Below are positions 6,969-24,039 of a DNA stretch of 64,000 bases, one piece after another; positions within the stretch are counted from its first letter, which is position 1; every line of letters begins with the position of its first letter. The notes beneath the pieces are model-generated. The model was not told where the DNA came from, searched no databases, and saw nothing but the letters and a program-made list of their open reading frames with translations. The DNA comes from Nitratireductor aquibiodomus NL21 = JCM 21793 (lineage in GTDB: Bacteria > Pseudomonadota > Alphaproteobacteria > Rhizobiales > Rhizobiaceae), in contig NZ_BAMP01000015.1 of NCBI RefSeq assembly GCF_000615975.1, positions 1-64,000 on the forward strand, in the 5' to 3' direction. A program made the position numbers and the translations under genes.

Positions 6969-8904
6969 TGAGTGAAGCCGTCTCCACCGCCGCGAAGGGC
7001 AGGGCGCGCGGGGCAGGCCGCCCCGGACCGGTCCGCCTGCTTCTCAACAACACGCTTGCGGCTTCCGGGCTGGCGCTGCTGGTGCTGATCATCGCGGCCG
7101 CGCTTCTGGCGCCGCTCCTGCCGCTGCCCGACCCGGACGCGACGGCACCGGCCAACAGGCTGTTGCGCCCGCTCACAGAAGGGCACCTGCTCGGCACGGA
7201 TGCGCTCGGGCGCGACATTCTCTCGCGGCTTGTCTGGGGCACGCGCGTCAGCCTTGCCGTGGGCATCTCGGCGACGCTGATCGCCGCCTTCTTCGGCTCG
7301 CTCATCGGGCTGGTGGCAGGCTATGCGGGCGGCCGTGTGGACGCCTTCCTGATGCGCGGCATCGATATGGTGATGGCGTTTCCCTACATCCTGCTGGCAC
7401 TCGCCATCGTGGCGGCGCTCGGACCGGGACTGCTCAATGCGCTCTACGCCATCGCGGTGGTGAACATCCCCTTCTTCGCACGCAACATTCGCGGCATCAC
7501 CATCGGGCTGTCGCGGCGTGAATTTGTCGATGCAGCGCGTCTTTCGGGCAAGTCGAACGCGGGCATTCTCTTCGGTGAGATCCTGCCCAACGTTCTGCCG
7601 GTCATCATCATCACCATGTCGACCACCATCGGCTGGATGATCCTCGAAACAGCCGGCCTGTCCTTCCTCGGGCTCGGCGCACAGCCGCCGCAAGCGGATC
7701 TCGGCTCAATGTTGGGAGAGGGCCGCAAAATCCTCTTCACCGCACCGCATGTGTCGATCATTCCCGGCCTGATGATCTTCGCGCTGGTCATGAGCATCAA
7801 TCTGCTGGGCGATGGCGTGCGTGACGTGCTCGACCCGCGGCTGAAATCGGGTGCGCTGACGCGGCCCGTGGCCCGCACGGCAGTGGAACGCCGCACGGTG
7901 CCGGAAACCCGCACCCATAACGACAGTGTTCTGGAAGTGGCGGACCTGAACACGGAGTTTCACATCGGCGATGACGTTTATCGCGCGGTGGGCGGCATCG
8001 ACCTGCATCTGAAGCAGGGCGAATGCCTTGGCATTGTCGGCGAATCCGGTTCCGGCAAATCGGTGACGGCCATGTCGCTCATGGGGCTGGTGCCGACGCC
8101 GCCCGGCCGCATCACGGGCGGGGCCGCCTGGCTCGGCGACGAAGACCTTTTCGCCGTCAGCGATGAGCGTATCCGCGCGTTGCGCGGAGCGGATGTCAGC
8201 CATGTCTTTCAGGACCCGCTGTCCACCCTGCACCCGCTGTTCACCATCGGCGACCAGCTTACGGAGGCGATCATGGCGCACCGACCGATCCGGCGGTCGG
8301 AGGCGGATACACGCGCCGAGGAGCTGCTGCGTCTGGTGCGCATCACCAATCCGGCGGAGCGGCTGAAGGTCTATCCGCACGAACTGTCCGGCGGCATGCG
8401 CCAGCGCGTGTGCATCGCCATGGCTCTTGCCAATGATGCCAGGATCATCATCGCCGACGAGCCGACAACGGCGCTGGACGTGACCGTGCAGGCGCAGATC
8501 CTGTCGCTGATGGACACGCTGAGACGCGAAAGCAATGCCGCGATCCTGTTCATCACCCATGATTTCGGGGTCGTGTCGACCGTGTGCGACCGGGTTGCCG
8601 TCATGTATGCAGGACGCATCGTCGAAACGGGGACGACGGAGGAGGTGCTCAATGCGCCGGCGCATCCCTACACCCGCAAGCTGATCGACTGCGTGCCGGT
8701 TCTGGGCGAGCCCGGCCGGAGCTCGACGCCATCGAGGGGCGTCCGCCGGTGGTCAACGATCTGCCGCCGGGCTGTGCCTTCGCAGCACGTTGCCCGCGGG
8801 TGAAGCCCAACTGCCGCAGGGGGCATATCGCACTTTCCAGCCTTGGCGATACGCAGGCCGTGCGCTGCCTCTATCCAATGACAGTGGAGACCGCCGATGG
8901 ATGA
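6968..8904 (+). CDS. Fused ABC permease (DppC type) and ATPase (DppD type), frameshifted near the 3' end
   Basis: A single polypeptide joins a DppC-like permease (about residues 1-290; [29 protein letters not shown] coupling loop, LDPRL end) to a DppD-like ATPase. The ATPase half has Walker A GESGSGKS (358-365), signature LSGGMRQR (473-480) and Walker [13 protein letters not shown]. Fused permease-ATPase subunits of this class are known, so the join itself need not be an error. Near 8714 the frame changes: GEPG is followed in another frame by [20 protein letters not shown], the C-terminal oligopeptide-binding extension with its FAARCP motif, as if one G were lost. Repaired length about 645 aa. 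The end overlaps the next ATPase gene by 8 bases. Confidence 0.9.
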
Positions 8905-9888
8905 CATGGCCCTTCTAAAAATTGACGCTGCGGAGCGGATCTTCGGCGGTGGCCGCACACTGTTCGGCAAGCCCTTGCCGGCGGTGCATGCGGTGCAGGG
9001 CATATCGTTCGACGTGCGCCGTGGCGAGACGCTTGGGGTGGTCGGGGAATCGGGCTGCGGCAAGTCGACACTTGCGCGCCTGATCGTCGGCCTCGATACG
9101 CCCACCGGCGGCGCGATCACCTTCGACGGGGTGGATCTGGTTGCCGAAGCCAGGCGCGACCCGCAGAAGCTTGCGCGGCGCGTGCAGTATGTCTTTCAGG
9201 ATCCCGTCGCGTCGCTCAATCCGCGCAAGAGATCCGCACCATTCTTGAAGCGCCGCTCAGAAATCTGCTCGGACTGGGCCGCGAGGCGCGCGAAAAACGG
9301 CTTGAGGAACTGATGGAGGCAGTCAATCTCGCGCCGGAATTCCTAGAGCGCTACCCGCACGAGTTCTCCGGCGGGCAGGCGCAGCGCATCGGCATTGCCC
9401 GTGCGCTGGCCGCCGACCCCGAGCTGATCGTGCTTGATGAGCCGGTTTCCGCGCTCGACGTGTCGGTTCAGGCGCAGGTTCTGAACATTCTCGACGACCT
9501 CAAGAAGACGTTCGGCCTCACCTACGTCTTCATCAGCCACGATCTTTCGGTGATCGAAAGCGTCAGCGACCGGGTGGCGGTGCTTTATTTCGGCCGGCTT
9601 GCCGAACTCGGGGCGTCGGAGCGCATCTTCGCAGCGCCGCGCCATCCCTACACGCATCTCCTGTTGAAATCGGCGCCGGTTCCGGGAAAACGGTCGCTCA
9701 TCCCGGAAGATGCGAATACAGAACTGCCGGATCCGTATGATCCGCCGCCAGGCTGTGCATTCTTCGCCCGCTGCCCGCGCGGAACCGACCGATGCAAATC
9801 GGTGCAGCCACCACTCGAGGCTGCACCCGGCCACCCGGGGCACATGGCGGCCTGCCATCACCCCGTCAAAGAGAACGAGGATGCCTGA
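8897..9888 (+). CDS. ABC transporter ATPase, DppF type, frameshifted
   Basis: Second nucleotide-binding subunit of the importer. Walker A GESGCGKS at residues 50-57, Q-loop VFQDP, signature FSGGQAQR, Walker B LIVLDEPVSALD and the C-terminal FFARCPRGTDRC extension are all present. The frame breaks near 9228-9231: SLNPRK is followed in another frame by IRTILEAPLRNLLGLG, consistent with loss of one base; repaired length about 330 aa. It lies immediately after the fused permease-ATPase and its last 8 bases overlap the GntR regulator start, so the cassette is probably one transcript from 4250 onwards. Confidence 0.9.
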
Positions 9889-11169: not shown

Positions 11170-11575
11170 TCAGAACCTTTCGGTCAGGTGCAGCGTCATT
11201 GTGTAGCCGGCCCAGGCAGAGACCCCGGTCAACACCGTGCCCCAGGCCATGTCGACAACGGTTACGGCAACCGACCAGTTCTTGATCGTGGCGAGGTTGG
11301 TCATGTCGTAAGTCCCGTAGCTATGAGCCGAGAAGTGCGCCCGCGATCAGGGCGCTCGTCGCCGTTCCATTGCTGAGGGCAGGTGCGACCGCGAAGTAGA
11401 CAACACCTGCCACATAGAAGAGATAGAACATTCCCGCCGCTGCGAAGTTTGGCTGATCCAGCAGAAGGTGCCCCATGCGGTCACGGTAAAACCCCGCAGC
11501 GACGCGCGAAAGCCAGATATAGTCCAACCCGAAGAAGACGATCGCCGTGGCTGCATAAGCAATGACATAGCTCAT
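11170..11575 (-). CDS. DUF2177 family membrane protein, disrupted by two close frameshifts
   Basis: The first 83 residues (MSYVIAYAATAIVFFGLDYI, then WLSRVAAGFYRDRMGHLL) are typical of DUF2177, a four-helix membrane protein. The frame is lost around 11319-11328, where GALLG is followed by a stop. Adding one base at each of two points about 8 bases apart restores YGTYDMTNLATIKNW and TVVDMAWGTVLTGVSAWAGY, ending at the TGA read from 11172-11170; the repaired protein would be about 135 aa. DUF2177 genes often accompany rpoE-chrR pairs, and here it lies 33 bases after chrR on the same strand, so it is probably the third gene of that operon. Function unknown. True decay or sequencing error cannot be separated here. 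Confidence 0.75.
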
Positions 11576-11608
11576 TGGTTTCTCCGGTGCTTGGGTCTAC
11601 AGTCAGGT

Positions 11609-12283
11609 TCAGATTCCCAGGATCGGCTGTATGGCACGCAGCAGCCAACTCCGGAACTTCAACGGGGCATCGGTCACGGCAAGGCAGATACAGTCCTCAC
11701 CTTCCGTTGCCACCGGCTGGTGCTGCAGTGTCTCGTCTGCCTCTTCCAGATCGCCGCGCGCAAACAGCGCTTCGCCATCGTGAAAACTGCCGGAAAGGAC
11801 CAGCGTCAACTCCCGGCCGCGATGTCCGTGTTCAGGCACCGGTTTGCCTGCTGGAATGCGCAGCAGCCGTACTTTGGTGCTCTCGTCCTCCAGCTCGATC
11901 GGCATATGGTATGCGCCACGGCCGAGTGGTCGCCATTTCACGGACTCTAAATCTCCGCCCACATAAGACCGCAGAGGTTCGGGTAAAACGACGGCCCCGC
12001 CTCGCACAGCCAGGTCGTCCGCCTGAAGGACGGCAGGCTGCATTTCGGAAACGCCCAGGCGCTTCTTGATCGATATCCAGGCTTCATCGTCGTTAGATCG
12101 CAAGGGCTCTGGTGGATGTTCGCGCACCAGCACACCCCCTGCCATTTCCATTAAAGAGAGACGGCGCCGGCCCTGCGGGCAAAGCGCGAGATGGGTCGCT
12201 ACAGCGATGCGCCAGCCTTCCGAAAGGGCACCGGTGGCATAGTCCAGAAGCAGTTCGTCGCTGACGTGGTGCCGTATCGTCAT
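11609..12283 (-). CDS. chrR: ChrR-family zinc anti-sigma factor with cupin domain, missing one canonical Zn ligand
   Basis: Anti-sigma factor of 224 aa that should hold the adjacent ECF sigma inactive until singlet oxygen or organic peroxide stress. The N-terminal anti-sigma domain keeps H6, H31 and C35 of the zinc site (numbering coincides with Rhodobacter ChrR), but position 38, normally Cys in HxxxCxxC, is Gly: the sequence is THLALCPQGRRR. The C-terminal cupin (about 95-205) keeps its metal residues in EHGHRGRE and a later His in TLQHQP. The start ATG overlaps the sigma gene stop by 4 bases. Either the zinc site has changed or one base is miscalled (TGC to GGC). Confidence 0.9.
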   Translation of the reverse strand: MTIRHHVSDELLLDYATGALSEGWRIAVATHLALCPQGRRRLSLMEMAGGVLVREHPPEPLRSNDDEAWISIKKRLGVSEMQPAVLQADDLAVRGGAVVLPEPLRSYVGGDLESVKWRPLGRGAYHMPIELEDESTKVRLLRIPAGKPVPEHGHRGRELTLVLSGSFHDGEALFARGDLEEADETLQHQPVATEGEDCICLAVTDAPLKFRSWLLRAIQPILGI

Positions 12284-12849
12284 GGCCGGTCCCCCAGCGC
12301 TGCGCGCAGTTTCGAGAAAGCAAGCCGGATGCGCGATTTCACGGTGCCCAGCGGCAGGCCGAGACGGTCCGCGATCTCGCTGTGCGAGACATCCTCGAAG
12401 AATGCAAGTTTCAGAAGATCACGCTGCTCGGAGGGAAGCCCGGTCATCGCGGCATGAAGACGTGTTTCCTCATCGCGCGTTTCGAGGGCATGGTCGGCCG
12501 CAGGCTCCGGCTCCGGCACAAATGCGGGATCGTTGGGATCAAAGTCGGGGCGCCGGCTTCGACGGTAGTTGTCGATACGCAGGTTACGCGCAATGGTGAA
12601 AATCCACGCGCTGGGCGTGCCTCTGGAGGGGTCGAACTGGGCAGCCTTCCGCCAGACCGTGACCATCGTTTCCTGCATCAGTTCTTCCGAGAGCTGCGGA
12701 TCGCGGACACGCTGCAACATAAATGCACGGACCTGAGGCGCATAAGCACGGAATATCCGCTCAAAAGCCTCGATGTCGCGGCTGCTGCCGACGCGGGCGA
12801 TCAACCGCGCAAGATCGTCCTTAGCCGCCGATTTGGAATTCTGCTTCAT
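12280..12849 (-). CDS. rpoE: ECF sigma factor, RpoE/ChrR-controlled group (ECF11-like)
   Basis: RNA polymerase sigma factor of 189 aa. Region 2 reads FERIFRAYAPQVRAFMLQRV, then ELMQETMVTVWRKAAQFDPS and AWIFTIARNLRIDNYRR; region 4 reads SHSEIADRLGLPLGTVKSRI and RLAFSKLRAALG. The start MKQNSKSAAKDD at 12849 is chosen because homology begins there; longer in-frame starts run through the promoter region. It is followed by its anti-sigma gene with a 4-base overlap, the normal rpoE-chrR arrangement. A TGATCC-N18-TAGCTA promoter about 110 bases upstream matches the known target of this sigma group, implying autoregulation. Confidence 0.93.
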   Translation of the reverse strand: MKQNSKSAAKDDLARLIARVGSSRDIEAFERIFRAYAPQVRAFMLQRVRDPQLSEELMQETMVTVWRKAAQFDPSRGTPSAWIFTIARNLRIDNYRRSRRPDFDPNDPAFVPEPEPAADHALETRDEETRLHAAMTGLPSEQRDLLKLAFFEDVSHSEIADRLGLPLGTVKSRIRLAFSKLRAALGDRP

Positions 12850-12956
12850 CAAGCCCCGCGGAACGTGTGTGTGATGCCGAGCGGCATGCACGACGGAAAA
12901 AGCTTGTAGCGTCTGGCTGGCAGACCTTGTCGGGCGGAGTTCCAGGTTCATGCCCC

Positions 12957-12986
12957 TAGCTACGACACTTAGAGCATCCCGGATCA
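12957..12986 (-). promoter_or_regulatory. RpoE-type promoter of the rpoE-chrR operon
   Basis: On the minus strand TGATCC (12986-12981) is followed by exactly 18 bases and TAGCTA (12962-12957). Established knowledge: Rhodobacter RpoE recognises TGATCC-N18/19-TA. The site lies upstream of the sigma gene start at 12849. Confidence 0.75.
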
Positions 12987-13012
12987 CAGCAGGCAATTTT
13001 TTTGCGTTCCGA

Positions 13013-13042
13013 AGATCCAAACAGGTTCAGCGCCCGTAGACA
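13013..13042 (+). promoter_or_regulatory. RpoE-type promoter of the flavoprotein-DUF1365-methyltransferase operon
   Basis: AGATCC (13013-13018) is followed by 18 bases and TAGACA (13037-13042). This is one mismatch from the TGATCC -35 of RpoE-type promoters with the same spacing as the divergent site. It lies 26 bases before the TTG start at 13069. Confidence 0.6.
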
Positions 13043-13068
13043 CTTATAAATCTCAAGGAGGGCTTCCG

Positions 13069-14417
13069 TTGCTGCCACAGAAACACAGAGCGACCGACAG
13101 TCGAGTGGCCGTTATCGGGAGCGGCATATCCGGGCTCTCGGCAGCCTGGCTCCTTTCTCGCTCTCGCCGTGTGACGCTGTATGAGGCGGATCATCGGCCG
13201 GGCGGACATGCGAACACCTATGATGTCATAACCCCCGGCGGCCCCGTCGCGGTCGATACGGGGTTCATCGTCTTCAACGATCGGAATTATCCCGAGCTTG
13301 TCTCGCTGTTCGGTCATCTTGGCGTGTCGACCCAACTCTCCGACATGTCCTTCGCCGCTTCGCTGGACGGTGGCCGTTTCGAGTATTCCGGCTCGGGTCT
13401 CAAGGGGCTCCTCGGTCAGAGGTCGAATGTGTTGCGGCCGGACTTCTGGCGCATGATCGCAGACATATTGCGCTTCTATCGACAGGCACCCTCGATATTG
13501 ATCGAGCGGAACCATGACAATGAAACCGTCGGCTCGTTTCTTGAGCGGGCAGGGTACAGCGACAGTTTCATAAACAACCATCTATTGCCCATGGGGGCGG
13601 CGATCTGGTCGACCACGGCAGCGCAGATGCGAGAATATCCACTCCTTGCGTTTATCATGTTCTTCGAGCGTCACGGCCTGCTGTCGCTGGTTGACCGGCC
13701 CCGCTGGCGCACCGTTACCGGTGGTAGTCGCACCTATGTCGAGCGGCTCCTTGAAGATTTCGATGGCGAGGTGCGTCTCTCAACGCCCGTGGCGCGAGTG
13801 CGGCGCCGGGATCGCGGGGTCGAAGTTACCGACGCGAATGGAGCTCCGACACGTTTGATGATGTCGTGATCGCCACCCATGCGGATCAGGCCCTGGGCAT
13901 GCTTGAAGATGCGAGCGAAGACGAACACCGGCTGTTGAGCGCGTTTTCCTATACGGCCAACGAGGCGGTTCTGCACCGGCATCCGGGTCTCATGCCGAAG
14001 CGCCGCAGCGTCTGGTCGAGCTGGAACTATGTCGAGGCAGCGCGCCAGTCCGGTGCACAAGAGCTCTGTGTCACCTACTGGATGAACCGCCTGCAGAACC
14101 TGGACCCGGCTCACCCACTGTTTGTCACTCTCAATCCCGTTTTTGACGTTCCTGAGCAGGACCGGATTACCTCCTTCAAATATGCGCACCCTCTGTTCGA
14201 CACGAAGGCGCTTGCTGTTCAGAAGCAGCTCTGGAGGTTGCAAGGTATCCGCAGTACGTGGTTCTGCGGTGCGTATTTCGGCAGTGGTTTTCATGAAGAC
14301 GGGATCCGGTCGGGGCTGAGCGCCGCGGAACAACTGGCAGGCGTGTCGCCCCCCTGGAGAAACGTCCGCCCGGGTCGGAAAGAGACGGCAATGCCGGAAC
14401 TTGTCGCAGCAGAATGA
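13069..14417 (+). CDS. FAD/NAD(P)-dependent amine-oxidase/desaturase-like flavoprotein, frameshifted
   Basis: Flavoprotein of the amine oxidase/phytoene desaturase superfamily. The N-terminal dinucleotide motif reads VAVIGSGISGLSAAWLLS with the acidic residue and RPGGHANTYD that follow in this family; later come DTGFIVFNDRNYP and the C-terminal FCGAYFGSGFHEDG. Start is TTG 13069 with AAGGAGGG 7 bases upstream. The frame breaks near 13843: DANGA is followed in another frame by SDTFDDVVIATHADQAL, as if one base were lost; repaired length about 449 aa. First gene of an operon with ATGA overlaps to DUF1365. Homologues sit beside CFA-like methyltransferases in RpoE regulons; a fatty-acyl desaturase role (UfaD-like) is possible but unproven. 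Confidence 0.85.
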
Positions 14418-15211
14418 AACGGAGCTCCGCCATTTATTCCGGTCGGGTCATACACCGTCGCCATCGACCGAAGGTGCACCGCCTGTTCTATCGGGTGTTC
14501 GCGCTCTATCTCGATCTTGACGAGATACCGGCCCTGTCCAAAGCCATGAAGCTTTTCAGCTACAATGGTGCCGGCGTGTTTTCCTTCAACGACGGCGATC
14601 ACGGGGATGGCACAAGGGGCGGCCTGCGTCGATGGGTCGACACGCAGATCGAAAAGGCCGGCCTGAATCCGGGGTCGATGCGCGTGTTCCTGCTTTGTTA
14701 TCCACGGATCTTTGGATACGTCTTCAATCCACTGTCCGTGTATTTCTGCCACGACACTTATGGAAACATTCGACTGATACTCTATGAGGTGTGCAACACC
14801 TTTGGCGAGCGACACACCTATGTGATCCCGGTGGAACGTGTCGGCCCGAAGGGGATCCGCCATGCCTGCGACAAGGCTCTTTACGTCTCGCCTTTCCTTT
14901 CGATGGATTGCCGGTATCACTTCCACATCATGCCGCCGGCGCAGGATGTGGTGGTCGCGATCAACGAGACAGAAACCAGCGAGCCCGTCCTGCACGCATC
15001 CTTCACAGGCCAACGAAGGGAGTTGACGGATCGCGCTCTGCTTGGCCTCCTGCTCAGTCACCCGCTGATGACCCTCAAGGTTACCGCTGCAATTCACTTC
15101 GAGGCAATGCGCCTCTGGCTGAAGAAAGTGCCCATTCACCGGCATGCGCCATCGGGAGAGCGTGTCGCTCAAACCCTGATCAAATCCGATCAAAAAGGCA
15201 GATCATCATGA
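14414..15211 (+). CDS. DUF1365 domain protein
   Basis: Protein of 265 aa with the DUF1365 hallmarks IYSGRVIHRRHRPKVHRLFY, YPRIFGYVFNPLSVYFCHD and EVCNTFGERHTYV, plus SPFLSMDCRYHFHI. Its start overlaps the preceding flavoprotein stop (ATGA) and its stop overlaps the next start (ATGA), so the three genes are translationally coupled. The molecular activity of DUF1365 is not established. Constant association with CFA-like methyltransferases and flavoproteins points to modification of membrane fatty-acyl chains. Confidence 0.9.
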   Translation: MKRSSAIYSGRVIHRRHRPKVHRLFYRVFALYLDLDEIPALSKAMKLFSYNGAGVFSFNDGDHGDGTRGGLRRWVDTQIEKAGLNPGSMRVFLLCYPRIFGYVFNPLSVYFCHDTYGNIRLILYEVCNTFGERHTYVIPVERVGPKGIRHACDKALYVSPFLSMDCRYHFHIMPPAQDVVVAINETETSEPVLHASFTGQRRELTDRALLGLLLSHPLMTLKVTAAIHFEAMRLWLKKVPIHRHAPSGERVAQTLIKSDQKGRSS

Positions 15212-16425
15212 GTCATATTGAGGACGCCTCCAGGTTGCCCGCCCAACCAGCCAGCCCATTGTGGCAGCGCATTGTCTGCCGCTGGGCGGATGCCGTTGGC
15301 TGCGGGCAGATCACCCTGCGATTTCCCGATGGCAGGCGCCATACCGCCGTCGGCGCACGCTCCGGACCGACAGCCGCACTGAATTTCAAGAGCGGCCGCG
15401 GATTTATGCAGATTCTGACGGGAGGCAGCAACGGCTTCGCACGCGCCTTCATCGACGGCCATGTCGATACGCCCGACCTGGACGCATTGCTTGAGCTTGC
15501 GCTGGTCAACGAGGAGCGGTGGAGCGATATCATGGGCAGTTCAACAATCATGTCGCGGCTGGAGACCCTCAGGCACCGCCTGCGCCGCAATTCGCGGGCG
15601 GGAAGCCGTCGAAACATTTCCTTTCACTACGACCTGGGAAATGCGTTCTACCGCCTCTGGCTCGACAACACGATGACCTACTCCTCTGCGATATACACTC
15701 CGGATACGCAGAATCTGGAAGAGGCGCAGGCCGCTAAATACGACCGCATCATATCCCGGCTGGAGATTGGTCCGGATGACCACGTACTGGAGATCGGATG
15801 CGGCTGGGGTGGATTTGCAGAACACGTCATCCGAAAAACGGGTTGCCGCGTGACCGGGCTGACACTGTCTCGCGAACAAGCCGATTATGCGCGGAACAGG
15901 CTGGAGAAAGCCGGCTTCACCGAAAGGGCCGACATTCGGCTTCAGGACTATCGCGATTGCGAAGGCAAGTTCTCCAAAGTCGTCTCCATCGAGATGTTTG
16001 AAGCCGTGGGCGAGGAGAGCTGGCCCCTTTTTTTCGATCGCCTCTGTGCTTTGCTGGCGCCAGGCGCCCGAGCCGTCATTCAGGTCATCACTCTCGATGA
16101 GAGCCGTTTTGAATCCTATCGCCGCAGGGCGGATTTCATCCAGACCTATGTTTTCCCCGGCGGAATGCTGCCCTCGCCACGCGCTTTCGAGAACGCTGCA
16201 TCCGCCGCAGGATTGACGCTTTCCGACCGGTACCTTTTCGGACAGGATTACGCCCGCACGCTGACGGAATGGGAGACGCGGTTCGAGCAAACCTGGCAAG
16301 CCATCGCCGCGCTCGGCTTCGACGAACGTTTCCGCCGCCTGTGGCTTTACTATCTTGCCTATTGCCGGGTCGGCTTCCAGAGCGGCCGCATCGATGTGGC
16401 TCAATACGAGCTTTCGTCGCGGTAG
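15208..16425 (+). CDS. CFA-synthase-like SAM-dependent fatty-acyl methyltransferase
   Basis: Class I methyltransferase of 405 aa in the cyclopropane-fatty-acid synthase superfamily, acting on unsaturated acyl chains of membrane phospholipids. SAM motif I is LEIGCGWGGFAEH (194-206), followed by LQDYRD, SIEMFEAVGEE (260-270), TYVFPGGMLPS (313-323) and a C-terminal YYLAYCRVGFQSGRID. Compared with E. coli Cfa, the bicarbonate-binding Cys139 (YSCAY) is Ser160 here and His266 (MFEHVG) is Ala266, while the Tyr of KYIFP is kept (Y314). This argues for methylation without cyclopropane closure. The start ATG 15208 overlaps the DUF1365 stop. Possible homologue of the furan-fatty-acid methylase UfaM; moderate confidence. 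Confidence 0.88.
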   Translation: MSHIEDASRLPAQPASPLWQRIVCRWADAVGCGQITLRFPDGRRHTAVGARSGPTAALNFKSGRGFMQILTGGSNGFARAFIDGHVDTPDLDALLELALVNEERWSDIMGSSTIMSRLETLRHRLRRNSRAGSRRNISFHYDLGNAFYRLWLDNTMTYSSAIYTPDTQNLEEAQAAKYDRIISRLEIGPDDHVLEIGCGWGGFAEHVIRKTGCRVTGLTLSREQADYARNRLEKAGFTERADIRLQDYRDCEGKFSKVVSIEMFEAVGEESWPLFFDRLCALLAPGARAVIQVITLDESRFESYRRRADFIQTYVFPGGMLPSPRAFENAASAAGLTLSDRYLFGQDYARTLTEWETRFEQTWQAIAALGFDERFRRLWLYYLAYCRVGFQSGRIDVAQYELSSR

Positions 16426-16445
16426 CGCTGCGGTGTGCGCACGGG

Positions 16446-17213
16446 TCAGTCCGGCGCCCTTACAAGGCGGCGGGTAATCGTGAAGCGAAGCATGGCCGGC
16501 AGCGCGTGCAGAAATTTGATCGCGAGTTTCATTTTCCAGGGAAAGATGATCTCGTACCGTCCATCCTCAAGCCCCTTCTCTATGCTGGCTGCCGCCTCAT
16601 CCGCCGAAATCAGGAACGGCATTGGGAAGTCATTCCTGGCCGTCAGGGGAGTATCGACGAAACCGGGGTTGATGACGCTCAACGAAACATTGCGGCGCTC
16701 CGCCTCTGGTTTCATCGCTTCGCATAGATTGTTGAGCGCAGACTTGGTCGCTCCGTAAGTAGCGCCGCCGGGAAGGCCGTTATAGCCGGCAACGGAAGCC
16801 ATGATGGCGATCTTTCCCCGCCTGCGGCTCATCATACTGTCCAGGAGCGGCTCAAGCGCGTTGCAGGTGCCCTGCAGATTCACCGCGATCATCGACTGCG
16901 CGACCTGAGCACGGAAGTCAAAAGCCCCGTCGCGCTTGTAGGTACCAGCGGCCAGAACAGCCATGTCGATCGGTCCCATTGCCAGTTCGATCTCCGCATG
17001 CACCTGTTTTGTTCGCGCCATGTCGGTCACATCAAGCGGGTAGGGGAAAATACTGCCCTCCTGCTCGGCAGCGAGTTCCTCGAGAGTTGCCGCGCTTCTG
17101 GCGCTCGCGGCGACCTGCCATCCATTGCGCGCCAGGCGTAGCGCCAGCGCACGTCCGATGCCTGAGCTGGCGCCGGTGACCCAGACGATTCCTTTGTGTT
17201 TCCTGCGTGCCAT
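16446..17213 (-). CDS. SDR-family oxidoreductase
   Basis: Short-chain dehydrogenase of 255 aa, using NAD(P)H. Rossmann motif TGASSGIG at 13-20, NAG equivalent LAAG near 88-90, catalytic Ser140, Tyr153 and Lys157 in YGATK. The C-terminal region has hydrophobic stretches around FPWKMKLAIKFLHALPAMLR, which may attach it to the membrane. The start MARRKHKG at 17213 is preferred over an upstream in-frame ATG at 17258. It converges on the methyltransferase gene (20 bases between stops) and has its own RpoE-type promoter, so it likely belongs to the same stress regulon. Substrate unknown. Confidence 0.9.
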   Translation of the reverse strand: MARRKHKGIVWVTGASSGIGRALALRLARNGWQVAASARSAATLEELAAEQEGSIFPYPLDVTDMARTKQVHAEIELAMGPIDMAVLAAGTYKRDGAFDFRAQVAQSMIAVNLQGTCNALEPLLDSMMSRRRGKIAIMASVAGYNGLPGGATYGATKSALNNLCEAMKPEAERRNVSLSVINPGFVDTPLTARNDFPMPFLISADEAAASIEKGLEDGRYEIIFPWKMKLAIKFLHALPAMLRFTITRRLVRAPD

Positions 17214-17237
17214 ATCTTTCCGTCTCCCTCTTGCCTG

Positions 17238-17267
17238 AGAATACGAAGCGCAGTCCAAAACGGATCA
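17238..17267 (-). promoter_or_regulatory. RpoE-type promoter of the SDR gene
   Basis: On the minus strand TGATCC (17267-17262) is followed by exactly 18 bases and TATTCT (17243-17238), 25 bases before the SDR start at 17213. The same pattern and spacing as at 12957-12986. Confidence 0.7.
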
Positions 17268-17507: not shown

Positions 17508-18362
17508 CTACCTTCGTGAAAACCGGACTGGAACCGTGAGTGTGCGGTTCACGCCGGGCGGTGGAGCCGGAACGGGAGAGGCACGGCGCACCAGCGAGAG
17601 AACCGCCTTGTCGAGCGCCGGATAACCGGACGATCGCGCAAGCGAAATCGCGCTTACATTGCCATTGCCGTCGATGCGAAAGCGCACATAGACAGTGCCC
17701 TGTTCGCGTCGCGCCCTTGCCGATGAGGGATAGCGCTTGCGCCGCTCCAGATGCGCCATCAGACGCGATTGCCAGCGGGCCGGGGAAATGTTGGGCGCAG
17801 AGCGTCCCGACGCATTCTGGCGGGCTGCGGTGCGGTTCGATTTGCGCACATTGGCCTGCGCCCTGGTCGCCTGTGTCGAGGTCGCACTTCTCTTCTTGCG
17901 GCGCTTCGTAACCTTCTTGGGAGCCTCTTTCTTCTCCACCTTGGTGGGCGCGGGCGGCTGCGGGCGTGGGGTCGGCAGCGGAACGGCCACGTTTTCGAGC
18001 AGCTGCGCAATCTCACTGACTTCCGGCTGATCTTCCTTCACCTCCGTCTCGGTGGGCTCTGCCACCTCTTCGGGCGGTTCTTCTTCCGGGAGCTCTTCGC
18101 CTGCGCTGGCGGTGCTCTCGGTCGAGTTTTCCTGTTCGGCAGCCATCACCTCTTCCTCGGTGGCCACTGCCTCCGGCGCTTCGGCGAATTCGATCATGAT
18201 GGCGGCGGGTGGCTCGTCGGCAACGGGCATCACCGGCTCCTCACGGGTCAGGAGAACCACCGCGCCGACATGAACGGCCAGAACCGCGAGAATGGCACCC
18301 GTCCAGAGAGCCAGTTCCGTCAGTCTGGCAAGACGTCCTGCAGAACCGTTCCAGGCGCTCAT
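17508..18362 (-). CDS. tonB: TonB-family energy transducer
   Basis: Protein of 284 aa linking the ExbBD motor to outer-membrane receptors. One N-terminal membrane segment (about 18-39, LWTGAILAVLAVHVGAVVLL) is followed by an acidic Pro/Glu-rich periplasmic spacer (EELPEEEPPEEVAEP), a Lys-rich segment and a C-terminal TonB domain with YPSSARARREQGTVYVRFRI and SSGYPALDKAVLSLV. Start ATG overlaps the exbD stop by 4 bases. Last gene of the exbB-exbD-tonB set that ends the haem-uptake locus. About 290 bases without a gene follow before the SDR promoter region. Confidence 0.93.
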   Translation of the reverse strand: MSAWNGSAGRLARLTELALWTGAILAVLAVHVGAVVLLTREEPVMPVADEPPAAIMIEFAEAPEAVATEEEVMAAEQENSTESTASAGEELPEEEPPEEVAEPTETEVKEDQPEVSEIAQLLENVAVPLPTPRPQPPAPTKVEKKEAPKKVTKRRKKRSATSTQATRAQANVRKSNRTAARQNASGRSAPNISPARWQSRLMAHLERRKRYPSSARARREQGTVYVRFRIDGNGNVSAISLARSSGYPALDKAVLSLVRRASPVPAPPPGVNRTLTVPVRFSRR

Positions 18363-18823
18363 GGCTGCTGCTCTGCCTTTGGTTCGGGGGCTGCCGGTGC
18401 TGGCGATGAACCTTCCAGGCCGACCAGCGCGATCTTGAGATAGCCTGCATCGCGAAGCAGGTTCATCACCTCCATGAGATGTTCGTAGGCCACTGTCTTG
18501 TCGGCTCGCAGAAACACCCTCGTCTCAAGGTTCCCCTCAGAAGCGGTCTGCATGGCAACGGCAAGCCCTTCGCGCGTCACCGGATCGTTACCAAGCGAAA
18601 GCGCGAGTTCGGATGTCAGCGTCAGGTAGAGCGGCTTGTCGGGGCGCTCTTGCTTCTTGGCGCTGGATGCCGGCAGATCGACCTTCACATCCACGGTGGC
18701 CAGCGGCGCGGCCACCATGAAGATGATGAGCAGCACAAGCATCACGTCGATAAAGGGCGTGACGTTGATTTCGTGATTCTCTTCGAGATCGTCGGTTGCC
18801 CGTTCCTTCATACGTCCGGCCAT
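18359..18823 (-). CDS. exbD: ExbD biopolymer transport protein
   Basis: 154-aa component of the proton-driven TonB motor. It has a short cytoplasmic N-terminus, one membrane helix beginning INVTPFIDVMLVLLIIFMVA, with the proton-path Asp in FIDVML, and a periplasmic domain (LPASSAKKQERPDKPLYLTL). The C-terminus carries a Pro/Glu/Ala tail. It lies 5 bases after exbB and overlaps tonB. Confidence 0.95.
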   Translation of the reverse strand: MAGRMKERATDDLEENHEINVTPFIDVMLVLLIIFMVAAPLATVDVKVDLPASSAKKQERPDKPLYLTLTSELALSLGNDPVTREGLAVAMQTASEGNLETRVFLRADKTVAYEHLMEVMNLLRDAGYLKIALVGLEGSSPAPAAPEPKAEQQP

Positions 18824-18828
18824 GGCTT

Positions 18829-19965
18829 CTACTCTGCCGCGATTTTCTGGGTGTCTTCCTGCATCGAAGCGGCGGCGAGACGGAAGTCGAGGTCGCGGCT
18901 GGCAAGCCGCTCGACACCGGCGGCCGCATCGCCGAGCAATTGGCGATACCCCGTTATGCTGCGCGCGAAGACGTTGTAGATGACCACGGCCGGAATGGCC
19001 GCGACAAGGCCGATGGCGGTGGCCAGAAGGGCTTCGGCGATGCCGGGCGCGACGATGGCCAGATTGGTGGTCTGCGCTTCCGAAATGCCGATAAAGGAAT
19101 TCATGATGCCCCAGACCGTGCCGAAAAGACCGACGAAGGGCGCCGTCGAACCGATCGTCGCCAGAACACCGGTTCCGCGCGTCAGGCGGCGTCCGGCCTG
19201 TGCCTCGATCCGGCCGAGCGACGAAGCGATGCGTTCCTTCACACCGTCATTGCCGGCATGGTCGAGCGCTGCGGCGGACTGCTGCATTTCCTCTTCGGCC
19301 AGCCGCACCATATAGGCGGCGGGTCCGCCGCGTCGGGCAAGGACGCTTCCCGCATCCTTCAGGCTGGAAGACCGTGTGATGATCCCCAGAACGCGCTTTG
19401 CGCGAGCCCGTGCGCAGGCAATTTCGATGCTTTTTGCGAGCCAGACGGTCCAGGTCAGGAGCGATGCAAGGGCGAGGCCGATCATCACCGCCTTCACCAC
19501 CCAGTCGGCGGCCATGAACATGCCCCAGGGGGAAAGGTCGTGCGGCAGGTCGGAACGCTTTTCTGGCTGGGAGAGCATTTGCGAGAGCGCCGCCGCCGGA
19601 TCGTCGAGAAGCGAGGGGGCCGGCTCGGCCTGTGTTGGTGCGGTCACTGGCTCTGCATCCACTGCTGGTGCGGCGCTGGCGGGGGTGCCTGCGGCAGGTG
19701 TGTCGGCTGGTTGTGGCTTCTGTTCGGTTGCCGGTGCCGCCCCGGATGCCGGAGCGTCCGCCTCCGCGCTGCCTGAACCGGTGCTTTCTGCCGGCGCTGG
19801 GGACTGTGGTTCGGCAGGCGCGCTGGTTTCCGTATCCGGCGCGGCCACGTCCTGTGCCATGGCCGGGTTTGCCGGCGCCAGGAGCAAAGCGGCCGAGAGC
19901 ACCAGGGCAAACCGGAGGCCAGTCCGGTGAAGCACGGTTTCGCGGGAATGATGAGAAGCGGTCAT
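18829..19965 (-). CDS. exbB: ExbB (TonB-system energizer) with long periplasmic N-terminal extension
   Basis: 378-aa MotA/TolQ/ExbB-family protein. A signal-like segment ([20 protein letters not shown], cleavage near AQD) is followed by about 90 residues rich in Ala, Pro, Glu and Thr. The conserved three-helix core comes next, with [13 protein letters not shown] and [19 protein letters not shown]. The long extension is a feature of alphaproteobacterial ExbB proteins. The start MTASHHSRE at 19965 is preferred over an ATG at 19992. About 120 bases separate it from the DUF454 gene upstream, so it may be co-transcribed with the haem oxygenase genes. Confidence 0.93.
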
Positions 19966-20088
19966 GATCGGTCTTTTTTGCTGGCGCGGCACCGCATTGC
20001 TCCCACTTGCGGTGGGGCACGCATCGTCGCTTGATGAAAATTGCGTTCGGTAATTCGGTAAGATTGTCAGGCTGGCGCGCGTGCTTCT

Positions 20089-20577
20089 TCAGGCCTCGGG
20101 GCGCATCGCAATCCAGATCGCCACGCTGCCTGTCGCTGCCCCAACGACGAGCGCCAGCAGAAGGCCCGGTTCGTAAAGCAGGATGAAAACGCCATAACCA
20201 AAGGCAATACCGCCCGCCGCCAGAAGTTTGGCGCGGCGTGACATCACGCCATGGTCGCGCCAGTTGCGCAAAACGGGACCGAGTTTCGGATGTTCGAGCA
20301 GTTTGCGTTCAAGCGCGGGTGAGGAACGCGCAAAGAACCACCCGGCCAGAATCAGGAATATCGTGGTCGGCATGACTGGCAGGAATGCCCCGATCACGGC
20401 CAGAAGCAGCATGACGAGGCCCATAATGAGCAGCATCGTACGCTTTGCATGTTCGAATGCGGGCGCGATCTTCAAAGACCGACCTCCATCGACCGACCAG
20501 CTTGTGAGAGAGACCTGCTCCTGCCCCGATATCTGCGGGGCGGTGGCAGCCTTCATGGCTGCAGGGATCGTATTCAT
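20089..20577 (-). CDS. DUF454 (YbaN-like) inner-membrane protein
   Basis: 162-aa protein with the DUF454 core: MGLVMLLLAVIGAFLPVMPT, then IFLILAGWFFARSSPALERK, HPKLGPVLRNWRDHG and two further membrane segments. Family function is not established. Its start overlaps the haem oxygenase stop by 4 bases, and DUF454 genes are often found next to haem oxygenase genes, which suggests a helper role in haem use. Confidence 0.88.
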   Translation of the reverse strand: MNTIPAAMKAATAPQISGQEQVSLTSWSVDGGRSLKIAPAFEHAKRTMLLIMGLVMLLLAVIGAFLPVMPTTIFLILAGWFFARSSPALERKLLEHPKLGPVLRNWRDHGVMSRRAKLLAAGGIAFGYGVFILLYEPGLLLALVVGAATGSVAIWIAMRPEA

Positions 20578-21182
20578 TGAAACACCTCCTCGACAAGGGT
20601 GCGAACGCGATGAAATGCGTTCTCCGCACCTGTAACAACCGAATGTTCTTCCGTTTCCTGGAGTGAGAGCGCGTCGAGTGCACCGGTAAAGGTGCGCCAG
20701 TGCCGTCCGCGCCCTTCGGGAGCGGCGGCCAGATGCCGTGCGCCGAAATCCTCCGAAAGGTCGAGTGTCCGGGCTTCCTTGAGCAGGAAGGCGGCACCCA
20801 GGTTTGAGCCTTCCGCCACATAGAGCCAGCCAAGCGCGGCGGGCATGTCCGGTTGGGTTTCAGCGGTGAAAATGGGCGCCTCGTTCAGTGCCGGTGCCCC
20901 AATTTCGAGATCGGCGAGATCTTGCGCGATGAGCGAGAAGCGTCTGCGCACATCGAGATCCGGCAGAAGAGCGGAGAGAGCCGGGTTGCAATAAAGCGCG
21001 TCGATGTCGCGGTGAAACAGATACTGCATGCGCAGGAACTGCCCGAAGCGTTCGCGGCTGGCGAAAGGCTCGCGGTCCATGATCGCCTTGTCGAGGCGGT
21101 CGTGCGTTGTGGCTGTGCGCTCCTTCAGGAGTTTGGAGCGGGTTTTGCCATCAGGGTTGTCGAGAATGACGCGTTCATTCAT
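20574..21182 (-). CDS. Biliverdin-producing haem oxygenase
   Basis: 202-aa bacterial haem oxygenase (PigA/BphO-like) that opens haem to biliverdin, CO and iron in the cytoplasm. The candidate proximal haem ligand is H27 in TTHDRLDKAIM. The distal-helix motif is GWLYVAEGSNLGAAFLLKEA. It sits between the haem-type TonB receptor gene (62 bases upstream) and DUF454, as expected for an enzyme releasing iron from imported haem. A photoreceptor-chromophore role is less likely because no phytochrome gene is adjacent. Confidence 0.92.
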   Translation of the reverse strand: MNERVILDNPDGKTRSKLLKERTATTHDRLDKAIMDREPFASRERFGQFLRMQYLFHRDIDALYCNPALSALLPDLDVRRRFSLIAQDLADLEIGAPALNEAPIFTAETQPDMPAALGWLYVAEGSNLGAAFLLKEARTLDLSEDFGARHLAAAPEGRGRHWRTFTGALDALSLQETEEHSVVTGAENAFHRVRTLVEEVFQ

Positions 21183-21244
21183 GGATAATGCCTTTGGATC
21201 GTGAGATGCGCGGAGCGGCTGTGCCGCCCCGCGTGGGAGCGGTT

Positions 21245-23917
21245 TCAGAACTTCGCCGTCATGGACGCATAGAAGGTGCGTCCCGGTCCGGGCCGCTGCA
21301 TGAGGCTGATCGGGTCCACGTAGAACTCGTCTGTGAGGTTCTCGACCCGGAAAGTGGCGGTCAGATTGTCAGTGAACTTGTACTCCGCGAACACATCGAC
21401 AAGTGTGTATGGATCCCATTTGATGAGCGAGATGAACTGCCCCGCGCCCTGACCGTCGATGTTTGTGTGTCCGGCCGCGCGCGGGCCCACATGGGTCACG
21501 CGTCCGCCGAGCGTCAGCCGGTCTTCAAGCAGTTTCTGCGAAAGCGAAAGCCCGATCATGTATTCCGGCGGCACCTGATTGGTCGCGAAGTCCGAATAGA
21601 TGGTCTCGTTCGCGCAGCCGGTGTCCTTGGGGCAAAACTCCACATTCGTGTAGTAATTCGCGGAGAGTTCGGCCGTGAACCCGGAATTCTCGTAGCGACC
21701 GGACAATTCGACGCCGGAGAACTTGGCCTTGTCCATATTGTACATGAAGCCGCCGAAGTAGCCGTTCGGCATGTAGCCGACGTGGCGTGCAACATAATTG
21801 TCGATGGTCCAGTCGAAATAGCCCAGCTTCACCATGGCGCGATCGTCGGCGCTGAAGAGGCCCTGTCGGGTGTGATTGACCCCAAGCTCCCAGTTGCTCG
21901 CGCGCTCCGGTTCGATATCGGTTATCGTGCTGACAGCAATGCCCCCCGACACGGTTTCCAGCAGGCTGGGCGTGCGAAGCGCATAGGAATAGCCGCCGTA
22001 GATCTGCGTATCTTCAAACGGCTCGAACGTAAGGCCCAGCGACGGGCTCAGACCGCCTGCCGAGCGCTTACCCGAATTCTCGATGTAATGAGACGGACCG
22101 ACCGGTCGCTTGTCCTGCGTCCAGTAGTGATCGTAGCGCAGACCACCGTCGACGGTCAGCCAGTCGATCGGCTTCCAGTTCGCCTTGACGAAGGCACCCA
22201 GTTCTTTCTTGTTTCCGTAGGCGGAATAGGGGCCGGAAAGCTCATCGGTATAGGCGCTGGGTTCCGTGGTCATGTAGTTGTAGGAAAGGCCGTAATCCAG
22301 ATTCACATCGCCGAACTGCGTGTCGAGCTTGGATTTGTTGCCGATGTCGAGACCCCACATGAGCACGTCCGAACCGGTCCGGAAGTCCATTGGAAGGCCG
22401 AACTGGTCCGGCGTCGGCCAAGTGCGCGTACCACGGTTCCAGGGTTTGCGCAGTTCCATGTCCGTCAGCCAGGCATTGGCCGTCAGGTCGATGAGGTCGT
22501 TTTCCTCAGGCTGCCATTTGTAGCGTGCGGTATAGGTGTCGACGGAGGTGCCGCTCGTCTGATCCCGCTGAACGGGGCGGTCGCGATTCGTCTGCATGCG
22601 CCAGGAAATCTGATCGCCCGCTTCGCTCCTGAAGCCTGTGTAGCCGAGCTTGAGGCTCTGTCCGTCACCGAACCGAAGCGTTCCCTTTGCAATTGTGGAT
22701 TTCGTTTCGAGCTCGGTGTTCAGAACTTCCTCGCCGGGGCGGTAGTTGGCGATGCCGCCGACTTCGACATATTCCGGCCAGTTGGTACACCAGCCCCAAG
22801 AGTTGCAAAGCTCCCTTGGGCCACTTTTGTAGGGCCTGGCCACGGGACCATTCTTGCCCGCATGGTAGTTTCCACGCTTGCGGTACGCATAGCCGACGAG
22901 AAAATCGTACTTCTCATCGTAGAATGCCGCGACGGCGCTTCCGTGGCCATTTGTCGGCTTCAGGAACGAGGGACGGTCCATGCCATCGGGCGAGGGGGTC
23001 GCCACCGGAGGTGACCAGGCATTTCCGGGGAATTGATAGCCGCCAAACGCGCCGGGAGTGGGATTGGACGAATTGGTTCCAAAGCCGCCTTTGACGCGGA
23101 AACCGAAGCGCTTGCCCTCTTCAACGATATCCTTCGCATCGATTGTGCGCATCGAGACCGTGCCTGCAATGCCGTTGGAGGCTGCGTCCGATCCCTTCGT
23201 GATGTCGATGCCGCCGATGAAGTCGGGATCGACGAAAGTGCGGTTGGAGTAACCCTGATAACCCTGCGGCACCGTCACGGAATTGGAACTGCCATCGATT
23301 TTGGTTGCGACGCGTCCGAGACCCTGCATGCCGCGAACGTTCATGTCGATGCCGCCAGAGCCGTTACGTGCGTTGGCGGAGGCGACGCCCGGCATCCCGC
23401 GAAACATGTCTGTAGGATCGGAGCCACGGTAGCGCTCGATTGTCGCCTCATCGATATGAGCGGTCGCTGCCGCCGTTGCATAGGGGGCGTAGACGGCGCT
23501 GTTTGCATTGCCGCCCAGTACCTCGATCACACCGAGCATCAGCGACCCGTCGGCCGCAACGGGAGCATGTGCGGACGAAACCCGGTCGGCAATGGTGACG
23601 GTTCCCGAAGCGTTGATCTGATGCGAGAGGCCCGTTCCCGAAAGCAGACGCCGAAGCGCTTCATTGCTGGAATAGGAGCCCTGCACTGCCGGGGCGGTGC
23701 GCCCTGATGCGAGGGACGCCGGATAGGCGAGCTTCAGTCCCGCCTGATTTGCAAAGGCGCTGAGCGCGGCCGCGAGCGGCTGCGCCGGAATATTGAACGC
23801 CGTCACCTGCGCGGTCGTCTGCGCTCTGGCGGAAACCACACCGCAAACCGGCACGATTGCCGTAGAGGCGACCAACAGCGCCCTTAGAAACTTACTCTGC
23901 CCCGTTCCAGACAACAT
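21245..23917 (-). CDS. TonB-dependent haem/iron receptor with N-terminal signalling (STN) domain
   Basis: Outer-membrane receptor of about 890 aa. The start at 23917 has GGAG 9 bases upstream; in-frame ATGs at 23932 and 23977 are alternatives. A signal peptide ends near ARAQ. The STN domain follows (FNIPAQPLAAALSAFANQAG, LSGTGLSHQINASGTVTI), then a plug (IERYRGSDPTDMFRGMPGV, GSGGIDMNVRGMQGLGRVAT) and a beta-barrel ending in the C-terminal Phe of FYASMTAKF. Plug and barrel resemble the haemoglobin/transferrin/lactoferrin receptor group. The STN domain, upstream FecI-FecR genes and downstream haem oxygenase indicate self-induced haem or iron uptake. Actual ligand not provable here. Confidence 0.92.
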   Translation of the reverse strand: MLSGTGQSKFLRALLVASTAIVPVCGVVSARAQTTAQVTAFNIPAQPLAAALSAFANQAGLKLAYPASLASGRTAPAVQGSYSSNEALRRLLSGTGLSHQINASGTVTIADRVSSAHAPVAADGSLMLGVIEVLGGNANSAVYAPYATAAATAHIDEATIERYRGSDPTDMFRGMPGVASANARNGSGGIDMNVRGMQGLGRVATKIDGSSNSVTVPQGYQGYSNRTFVDPDFIGGIDITKGSDAASNGIAGTVSMRTIDAKDIVEEGKRFGFRVKGGFGTNSSNPTPGAFGGYQFPGNAWSPPVATPSPDGMDRPSFLKPTNGHGSAVAAFYDEKYDFLVGYAYRKRGNYHAGKNGPVARPYKSGPRELCNSWGWCTNWPEYVEVGGIANYRPGEEVLNTELETKSTIAKGTLRFGDGQSLKLGYTGFRSEAGDQISWRMQTNRDRPVQRDQTSGTSVDTYTARYKWQPEENDLIDLTANAWLTDMELRKPWNRGTRTWPTPDQFGLPMDFRTGSDVLMWGLDIGNKSKLDTQFGDVNLDYGLSYNYMTTEPSAYTDELSGPYSAYGNKKELGAFVKANWKPIDWLTVDGGLRYDHYWTQDKRPVGPSHYIENSGKRSAGGLSPSLGLTFEPFEDTQIYGGYSYALRTPSLLETVSGGIAVSTITDIEPERASNWELGVNHTRQGLFSADDRAMVKLGYFDWTIDNYVARHVGYMPNGYFGGFMYNMDKAKFSGVELSGRYENSGFTAELSANYYTNVEFCPKDTGCANETIYSDFATNQVPPEYMIGLSLSQKLLEDRLTLGGRVTHVGPRAAGHTNIDGQGAGQFISLIKWDPYTLVDVFAEYKFTDNLTATFRVENLTDEFYVDPISLMQRPGPGRTFYASMTAKF

Positions 23918-24039
23918 ACACCCTGTCTCCATTATCTTCAGCGGGGCTTGGCATGCACAGTGCACAACACCCCTCACTGGCTAAGACAGGTTTCCTGACT
24001 AAAATCCTCAACAAAAATCGGAAATAATCTAAGAAAAAT

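Follow-up and report, generated by a model that had tools for sequence, protein, structure and literature searches.

The window analysed here, 64,000 nucleotides of contig NZ_BAMP01000015.1 of Nitratireductor aquibiodomus NL21 = JCM 21793, carries an operon for RpoE, a sigma factor of the extracytoplasmic function (ECF) type, and its putative anti-sigma factor ChrR, next to a candidate gene set for furan fatty acids. The anti-sigma zinc site of this ChrR has lost one of its ligands, and such losses recurred among related loci, while the zinc ligands of the cupin domain were kept throughout. The literature searched, which was mostly without subscription papers, yielded no account of a ChrR that has lost zinc ligands, and one may be in print; within that literature the novel part appears to be that the anti-sigma zinc site was lost repeatedly beside an intact regulon, the type of locus being known already.

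Compared with PDB sequences, the sigma factor matched R. sphaeroides RpoE (2q1z/2z2s) at E 1.9e-41, the next best match being at 1.4e-19. ChrR scored 206.1 bits against TIGR02451 (cut-off 124.5), but did not reach the narrower model NF051881 (136.4 versus 300). Sigma and ChrR thus each had their best PDB match in their counterpart of the 2q1z/2z2s complex from R. sphaeroides, and a TGATCC-type promoter stands upstream of rpoE, as expected for an ECF11 sigma/ChrR pair. By sequence, the locus thus belongs to the ECF11 sigmaE-ChrR and furan-fatty-acid regulon type. The window protein was filed under the ChrR family, and not under the zinc-binding anti-sigma (ZAS) proteins, because its residue 38 is Gly. 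No second ChrR was found in the draft genome at E <= 0.001; among the 65 genomes of the family with any ChrR match, 64 had one at E <= 1e-50. A preliminary description of this DNA had taken the locus for a self-contained singlet-oxygen response unit that remodels membrane lipids, possibly to furan fatty acids. Its gene set and orientations, rpoE-chrR-DUF2177 facing flavoprotein-DUF1365-CFA-like (CFA, cyclopropane fatty acid) with a short-chain dehydrogenase (SDR) gene converging, agreed with the open reading frames and family matches, and the families and the 2q1z/2z2s matches support a Rhodobacter-type pair. The wider interpretation stood in part, as to this pair, the matched promoters and the UfaD, UfaO and UfaM families in the order of R. 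palustris; the induction, its signal and its product we infer. Two frameshifts, a CG extension of the promoters and the degenerate zinc site of ChrR were not in that description.

We propose an autoregulated switch, in which ChrR would hold RpoE, and RpoE would transcribe its own operon, the UfaD-UfaO-UfaM operon and the SDR gene through TGATCC-N16-CGTA promoters. When ChrR is inactivated, as Rhodobacter ChrR is by singlet oxygen or organic hydroperoxide, membrane acyl chains would be methylated and converted to furan fatty acids, the synthesis of which is probably turned on by this switch. The anti-sigma zinc site would be in the course of being dismantled in this lineage, Cys38 being gone in the window, and His6 and Cys35 as well in relatives. 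The helical bundle of the degenerate ChrR would probably be held by hydrophobic packing, free of zinc, as in RseA, and the invariant cupin site would be left as the receiver of the signal. Taken as a whole, with ECF11-type switch, furan regulon and zinc-free inhibition, we regard this explanation as fairly probable.

The inducing signal could be organic hydroperoxide, UV-A, cadmium or superoxide and not singlet oxygen, which we find doubtful, though a possibility to be reckoned with. The sigmaE-ChrR system of Caulobacter reportedly responds to cadmium and UV-A, going by the title of Lourenco and Gomes from 2009. It responds to organic hydroperoxide as well (PMC6852236), and a Stenotrophomonas pair has been linked to superoxide (PMC11832516), whereas the furan-fatty-acid genes of Rhodobacter belong to the singlet-oxygen response (PMC6852236).

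Loss of the anti-sigma zinc ligands of ChrR

The zinc ligands of R. sphaeroides ChrR are H6, H31, C35 and C38 in the anti-sigma domain, and H141, H143, E147 and H177 in the cupin domain (PMC6852236). Aligned to the 2z2s sequence, the window ChrR has kept H6, H31, C35 and all four cupin ligands, and carries Gly in place of C38. A sequencing error as the source of the Cys38 change was rejected, as three relatives in the same starred clade of the tree described below are also without Cys38.

Ligands were counted in two samples, both obtained by profile search. The family sample comprised 64 of 66 places from 394 genomes, the window included, leaving out the G028 place (intact by eye) and the second copy in G398; the class sample comprised 109 of 138 places besides the window's own, the lowest-scoring ones being left out. 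The family sample contained 56 proteins with H6-H31-C35-C38 intact and 8 degenerate ones, all 8 without C38. The class sample divided into 89 intact and 20 degenerate proteins. None of these 20 had C38, and 12 of them had lost H31 too, the alignment being uncertain at single positions in the most diverged ones. The cupin ligands were intact in 64/64 and 109/109 proteins, or 173/173 in both samples, the underlying profile leaning on the cupin domain and so favouring proteins in which this domain is well conserved. An earlier count of cupin ligands, based on patterns, was biased by the presence of H141, H143 and E147 in the patterns themselves, and the counts used here are those from the profile searches. 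An ECF gene was adjacent in 14 of the 20 degenerate and 80 of the 89 intact cases; the 6 class-level degenerates without an ECF gene within ~1 kb may therefore be another kind of protein. Among 129 distinct proteins selected partly by similarity, the PDB sequence included (the family set), 21 were degenerate: C38 was lost in 21, H6 in 13 (to Gln, Arg or Lys), C35 in 6 and H31 in none.

Apart from these, ChrR-like proteins at eight loci (L052 and L054-L060) lie beside an SDR gene (8/8) and are without the cysteines of the anti-sigma zinc motif. No ECF sigma match was found at these eight loci, and a cysteine-synthase-like gene was seen nearby, by eye, at the three looked at (L052, L055 and L058). 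They possibly form a separate ChrR-like family.

To estimate how often the site was lost, sigma and ChrR were concatenated for 117 of 128 entries (those with >=45% identity to the window ChrR) and the four ligand columns were removed; the tree was made by a quick method with the Shimodaira-Hasegawa-like approximate likelihood ratio test (SH-aLRT). The degenerate state required at least 8 changes, and likewise 8 when just the starred branches were counted. The changes were read as losses because the site is intact in R. sphaeroides and on the deep branches. Within Nitratireductor, losses were placed in N. indicus and in the clade of the window, and elsewhere in the Agrobacterium rubi group, the group of Agrobacterium vitis S00303 and Allorhizobium terrae, Ciceribacter sp. 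L1K22, Rhizobium sp. AAP43, isolate AFS045263 and genome G234.

A helical bundle held without zinc has been reported for RseA, through hydrophobic contacts (PMC4598750), and for RsiW in a zinc-free crystal, SigW/RsiW retaining its structure without zinc (PMC5358783). The set of ligands lost from ChrR also agrees, by analogy, with the effects of mutations in a Neisseria ZAS protein, where Cys34Ala (the position of C35) behaved like a deletion, while Cys4Ala (H6) and Cys37Ala (C38) were milder (PMC2893595). We infer that the anti-sigma zinc is dispensable for inhibition in the degenerate lineages. Several points weigh against this reading and against the proposal built on it. R. sphaeroides ChrR requires zinc to inhibit sigmaE (PMC6852236, PMC6432622), and a zinc-free ChrR could therefore be inactive. 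According to PMC2893595, neither the Neisseria protein nor RsrA nor ChrR requires the His at the position of H31 in order to inhibit, and yet, contrary to this statement of dispensability, H31 was invariant in the family set. Compensating residues in ChrR or sigma, sought in independent pairs on the tree, were not found beyond the ligands and their direct neighbours; in 1436 tests, the best non-ligand columns tracked zinc-ligand loss in ~4.5 of the 8 independent pairs. In addition, the tree-building tool gave a warning about long-branch joins, and the assembly has frameshifts in two genes of the locus.

With three of the four ligands (H6, H31 and C35) the window ChrR may also still bind zinc, with water or some other group in the fourth position; losing Cys38 would then weaken or retune the affinity and raise the basal activity of sigma. 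We consider this rather unlikely. It would fit the retention of H31 in 21/21 and of C35 in 15/21 degenerate proteins of the family set, the modest effect of the mutation equivalent to Cys38 in the Neisseria protein (PMC2893595), and the modulation of sigma binding affinity by zinc (PMC4960319), but H6 was lost in 13/21 degenerate proteins, and several relatives offer too few candidate residues. The Cys and His within residues 1-60 are H5, H31 and H54 in L034, H5, C25 and H31 in L163, and only H5 and H31 in L094, which makes a zinc site formed from the anti-sigma domain of L094 alone implausible.

Lipid genes and the constraint on degenerate ChrR

UfaD of Rhodobacter is RSP1091, UfaO, a DUF1365 protein, is RSP1090, and UfaM methylates cis-vaccenate. 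In the window the UfaD, UfaO and UfaM families stand together, the UfaD-like frame being broken in the assembly; the locus joins three furan-fatty-acid gene families with their predicted regulator. Their order is that of R. palustris, where RPA2571-2570-2569 (UfaD-UfaO-UfaM) make the furan fatty acid 9M5-FuFA (PMC7380195).

The active-site Cys and His of CFA synthases are absent from the CFA-like protein of the window, which according to alignments with two PDB CFA synthases has Ser and Gln at the positions of Cys139 and His266. The numbering is that of the E. coli enzyme, and the two residues are presumably bicarbonate ligands of CFA synthase. Related loci were those with ChrR proteins >=45% identical to the window ChrR, and 106 remained after 11 of 117 were left out for being under 7 kb. 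Their 95 CFA-like neighbours had Ser (88) or Ala (7) at the Cys139 position and Gln at the His266 position in 94, with one gap, and kept the equivalents of Glu239 in 95, of Ile268 in 94 (one gap) and of Tyr317 in 93 (two gaps). The possibility that the gene is the housekeeping CFA was rejected, since the draft genome has a separate copy (G000:C183), which keeps both Cys and His. With Ser and Gln at these two positions, the CFA-like enzyme more likely methylates without closing a ring.

Production of cyclopropane or simple methyl-branched lipids with no furan appears improbable to us. In its favour, the CFA-like protein matches CFA models, although all below their cut-offs, the assembly has a frameshift in the UfaD-like gene, and cyclic fatty acids were found in E. 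coli overexpressing either Halomonas ufaM or cfa (PMC12089945). These points are opposed by the replacement of Cys139 in 95/95 and of His266 in 94/95 of the CFA-like neighbours, by the two residues kept in the separate CFA of the same genome, and by the UfaD and UfaO homologues that accompany the CFA-like gene in 94 of 106 loci. All three families were present in 18 of the 19 loci with degenerate ChrR besides the window, and in 76 of the 87 with intact ChrR; judged by its genes, the furan regulon is retained beside degenerate ChrR.

The anti-sigma domain (residues 2-58 without the ligand columns) was as constrained in degenerate as in intact relatives. In pairs matched at synonymous divergence (pS) of 0.2-0.45, its ratio of nonsynonymous to synonymous divergence (pN/pS) was 0.101 in 7 degenerate pairs, drawn from three clades and in part dependent on one another, versus 0.100 in 51 intact pairs. 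The corresponding values were 0.061 versus 0.055 for the cupin domain and 0.090 versus 0.083 for sigma. An earlier comparison, with 0.321 for the anti-sigma domain in 256 intact pairs versus 0.126 in 6 degenerate ones, was replaced because it mixed divergences; the weaker constraint of its intact pairs was attributed to the more diverged pairs among them. The AlphaFold model of the window ChrR had a mean predicted local distance difference test score (pLDDT) of 85.7 and its best PDB match in 2q1z/2z2s. It shows four anti-sigma helices, the fourth at lower confidence, with block means over ten residues of 93-97 for residues 11-50 and 68-81 for residues 51-80, and it speaks for compatibility only, as the predictor leaves zinc out.

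If degenerate ChrR no longer inhibited, as might follow from the zinc requirement reported for R. sphaeroides ChrR (PMC6852236), the regulon would be constitutively on and furan fatty acids would always be made. The equal constraint on the anti-sigma domain argues against this, as do the cupin ligands, intact in all 21 degenerate proteins of the family set, and we regard it as highly improbable.

A 2019 review (PMC6852236) describes as unknown what exactly the anti-sigma zinc does in the singlet-oxygen response. Chabert et al. 2019 (PMC6432622) proposed oxidation of the cysteines in the Cys2His2 zinc site as a possible key event of sensing, and also allowed for a joint role of the cupin domain, which was already held to be the sensor in PMC4960319. 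The ZAS survey of the latter paper was chosen by the zinc motif, and ligand losses such as these would therefore lie outside it. Natural ChrRs without one or both cysteines beside an intact regulon are ready material for testing what the zinc does; should they prove able to repress and respond, the Cys2His2 sensing proposal cannot be general. A more far-reaching possibility, which we find plausible but would not yet back, is that the anti-sigma zinc is neither needed for inhibition nor the sensor of singlet oxygen and that its site has been repeatedly dismantled in Alphaproteobacteria, each time with the loss of Cys38 and with the cupin metal site spared. Naturally zinc-free ChrRs would then still run the singlet-oxygen and furan-fatty-acid regulon, sensing being wholly a matter of the cupin domain and zinc at most a tuner of the set-point.

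Predicted promoters of the regulon

The preliminary description had pointed to three matched sites with 18-base spacers in front of the three transcription units, and these were found again (Table 1). The pattern NGATCC-N18-TA occurs exactly 3 times in the 64 kb, all at the three unit starts, but in 100 dinucleotide shuffles of the window it occurred on average 3.42 times (maximum 9), so that its count alone is not above chance. All three sites share CG before TA, and NGATCC-N16-CGTA, with 3 sites in the window, averaged 0.35 in 100 shuffled windows (maximum 3). It was the conservation of the spacer that decided for TGATCC-N16-CGTA as a promoter signal. In the 1.32 Mb of the 106 related loci, TGATCC-Nk-CGTA had 108 occurrences with k=16, against 0-4 for any other spacer length between 8 and 26, the loci being related and the sites mostly rpoE promoters, so that the 108 are not independent draws.

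Upstream of rpoE the site was strong in 92, weaker in 6 and absent in 9 of 107 loci, the window included, and it was present in 20/20 loci with degenerate ChrR (17 strong, 3 weak). Upstream of the flavoprotein gene it was strong in 37, weak in 2 and absent in 65 of the 107, the gene itself being absent in 3, and in front of the nearest SDR it was strong in 16 of the 65 loci having one. The predicted rpoE promoter is thus general across related loci, while support is thinner for those of the flavoprotein (37/107) and SDR (16/65) genes. The loci listed took in every one of the 20 with degenerate ChrR and some of the 87 with intact ChrR; among them, the window, L093 and L094 had a strong site in front of each of the three units.

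A scan of the draft genome with GATCC-N16/17-CGTA gave 32 sites, of which 30 were inspected, 3 of them being the locus promoters. Of the other 27, all but one (L073) lay within an open frame, on either strand, that was 80 codons or longer. Two of the three locus promoters (L082 and L084) did so too, so that a position inside a frame does not tell promoters from other sites. A control with the reversed pattern (5 versus 32 sites in the genome) was set aside as unfair, as the reversed motif presumably contains rare words. The chance that the promoter matches are accidental, as the equal frequency of NGATCC-N18-TA in shuffled sequence might suggest, is negligible in view of the exact 16-base spacer and the strong rpoE site in 92/107 loci, and for the rpoE promoter conservation rules it out.

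Locus layout and comparison with known systems

The draft genome comprises 4.5 Mb in 207 contigs and is 86.6% complete. The features of the locus are listed in Table 1; the rpoE operon runs leftward, and the flavoprotein operon faces it, running rightward. The closest named relatives at the locus were Nitratireductor, with 69-75% ChrR identity (L093-L096).

Table 1. Genes, predicted promoters and the anti-sigma zinc site of the rpoE locus (positions in the window)
Feature	Position	Strand	Evidence and remarks
rpoE-like ECF sigma factor, 189 aa	12280-12849	-	Pfam Sigma70_r2/r4; best PDB sequence match R. sphaeroides RpoE 2q1z/2z2s
ChrR-family anti-sigma factor, 224 aa	11609-12283	-	TIGR02451; PDB 2z2s alignment; cupin zinc ligands kept, Cys38 replaced by Gly
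Codons of ChrR residues 5-38, anti-sigma zinc site	12170-12271	-	2z2s alignment; H6, H31, C35 kept; Gly at residue 38 (codon 12170-12172)
DUF2177 membrane protein, third in the rpoE operon	~11170-11575	-	PF09945 E 1.1e-24 on first part (11321-11575), then other frame; second part matches relatives
UfaD-like amine-oxidase-type flavoprotein	13069-14417	+	PF01593/PF13450 on first part; second part without Pfam match; pieces 13069-13869 and 13866-14417
UfaO-like DUF1365 protein	14414-15211	+	PF07103 E 4.8e-79
UfaM-like S-adenosylmethionine-dependent fatty-acyl methylase, CFA family	15208-16425	+	PF02353 E 2e-85
Short-chain dehydrogenase (SDR), converges on CFA-like gene	16446-17213	-	PF00106 E 1.1e-44
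rpoE promoter TGATCC-N16-CGTA	12961-12986	-	112 bases upstream of rpoE start codon
Flavoprotein-operon promoter AGATCC-N16-CGTA	13013-13038	+	Like site in L093, L094
SDR promoter TGATCC-N16-CGTA	17242-17267	-	Strong site also in L093, L094, L095

The UfaO-like protein was the sole match of its family in the draft genome. Of the 106 related loci, 96 had DUF2177 immediately after chrR and 7 had it in another place, while none was found in the remaining 3. In contrast to their frameshifted copies in this assembly, the genes for the flavoprotein and DUF2177 are single open frames in 4/4 Nitratireductor loci compared (L093-L096), where the UfaD-like frame has 459-555 codons. By eye, two oligopeptide ABC transporter genes of the window look frame-broken as well, near 8.7 and 9.3 kb (6968-8803 with 8584-8904, and 8897-9313 with 9313-9888). 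Several breaks hitting unrelated genes within a few kb suggest indel errors and not decay, and the family-level conclusions are independent of the frameshifts in the window. Within the genus the distribution of ChrR was patchy. A match at E <= 0.001 was present in 7 of 10 genomes, in one of them (G005) only as a distant ChrR of 40% identity together with two partial matches (L050, L091, L092), and was not found at that threshold in G003, G007 and G009, each 99% complete. Beside the rpoE locus, positions 17508-23977 hold a TonB/ExbD/ExbB-like set, a heme-oxygenase-like gene and a TonB-dependent receptor, which from translations read by eye would be an iron or heme uptake cluster.

The R. sphaeroides sigmaE-ChrR pair (ECF11) comprises, by sequence comparison, the closest solved structures to the window sigma and ChrR. 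We take the sigmaE promoter of Rhodobacter to be of the TGATCC type, and RSP1087 to be an SDR. The core of the Rhodobacter sigmaE regulon includes the rpoE-chrR operon as well as the genes for furan fatty acids (PMC6852236). In contrast to R. sphaeroides, the Ufa-like operon of the window faces rpoE, DUF2177 follows chrR and ChrR is without Cys38; the ufaM-like gene shares one operon with the ufaD- and ufaO-like genes, whereas in Rhodobacter they lie far apart (PMC12089945). The R. palustris genes RPA2571-2570-2569 resemble the window in both family and order, and ufaM-ufaD-ufaO of Halomonas sp. YLGW01, likened here by family, are also consecutive (PMC12089945). With the ZAS proteins (ChrR, RsrA, RslA, RsiW) the window protein would share the anti-sigma domain, its model matching the ChrR of 2q1z/2z2s, but the H-X3-C-X2-C motif is broken, reading HLALCPQG in the window and HLALSPQS in two relatives. 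RseA, which sits in a membrane-bound system (PMC4598750), is likened to the window ChrR by mechanism, the zinc-free inhibition through a helical bundle that we propose for the latter.

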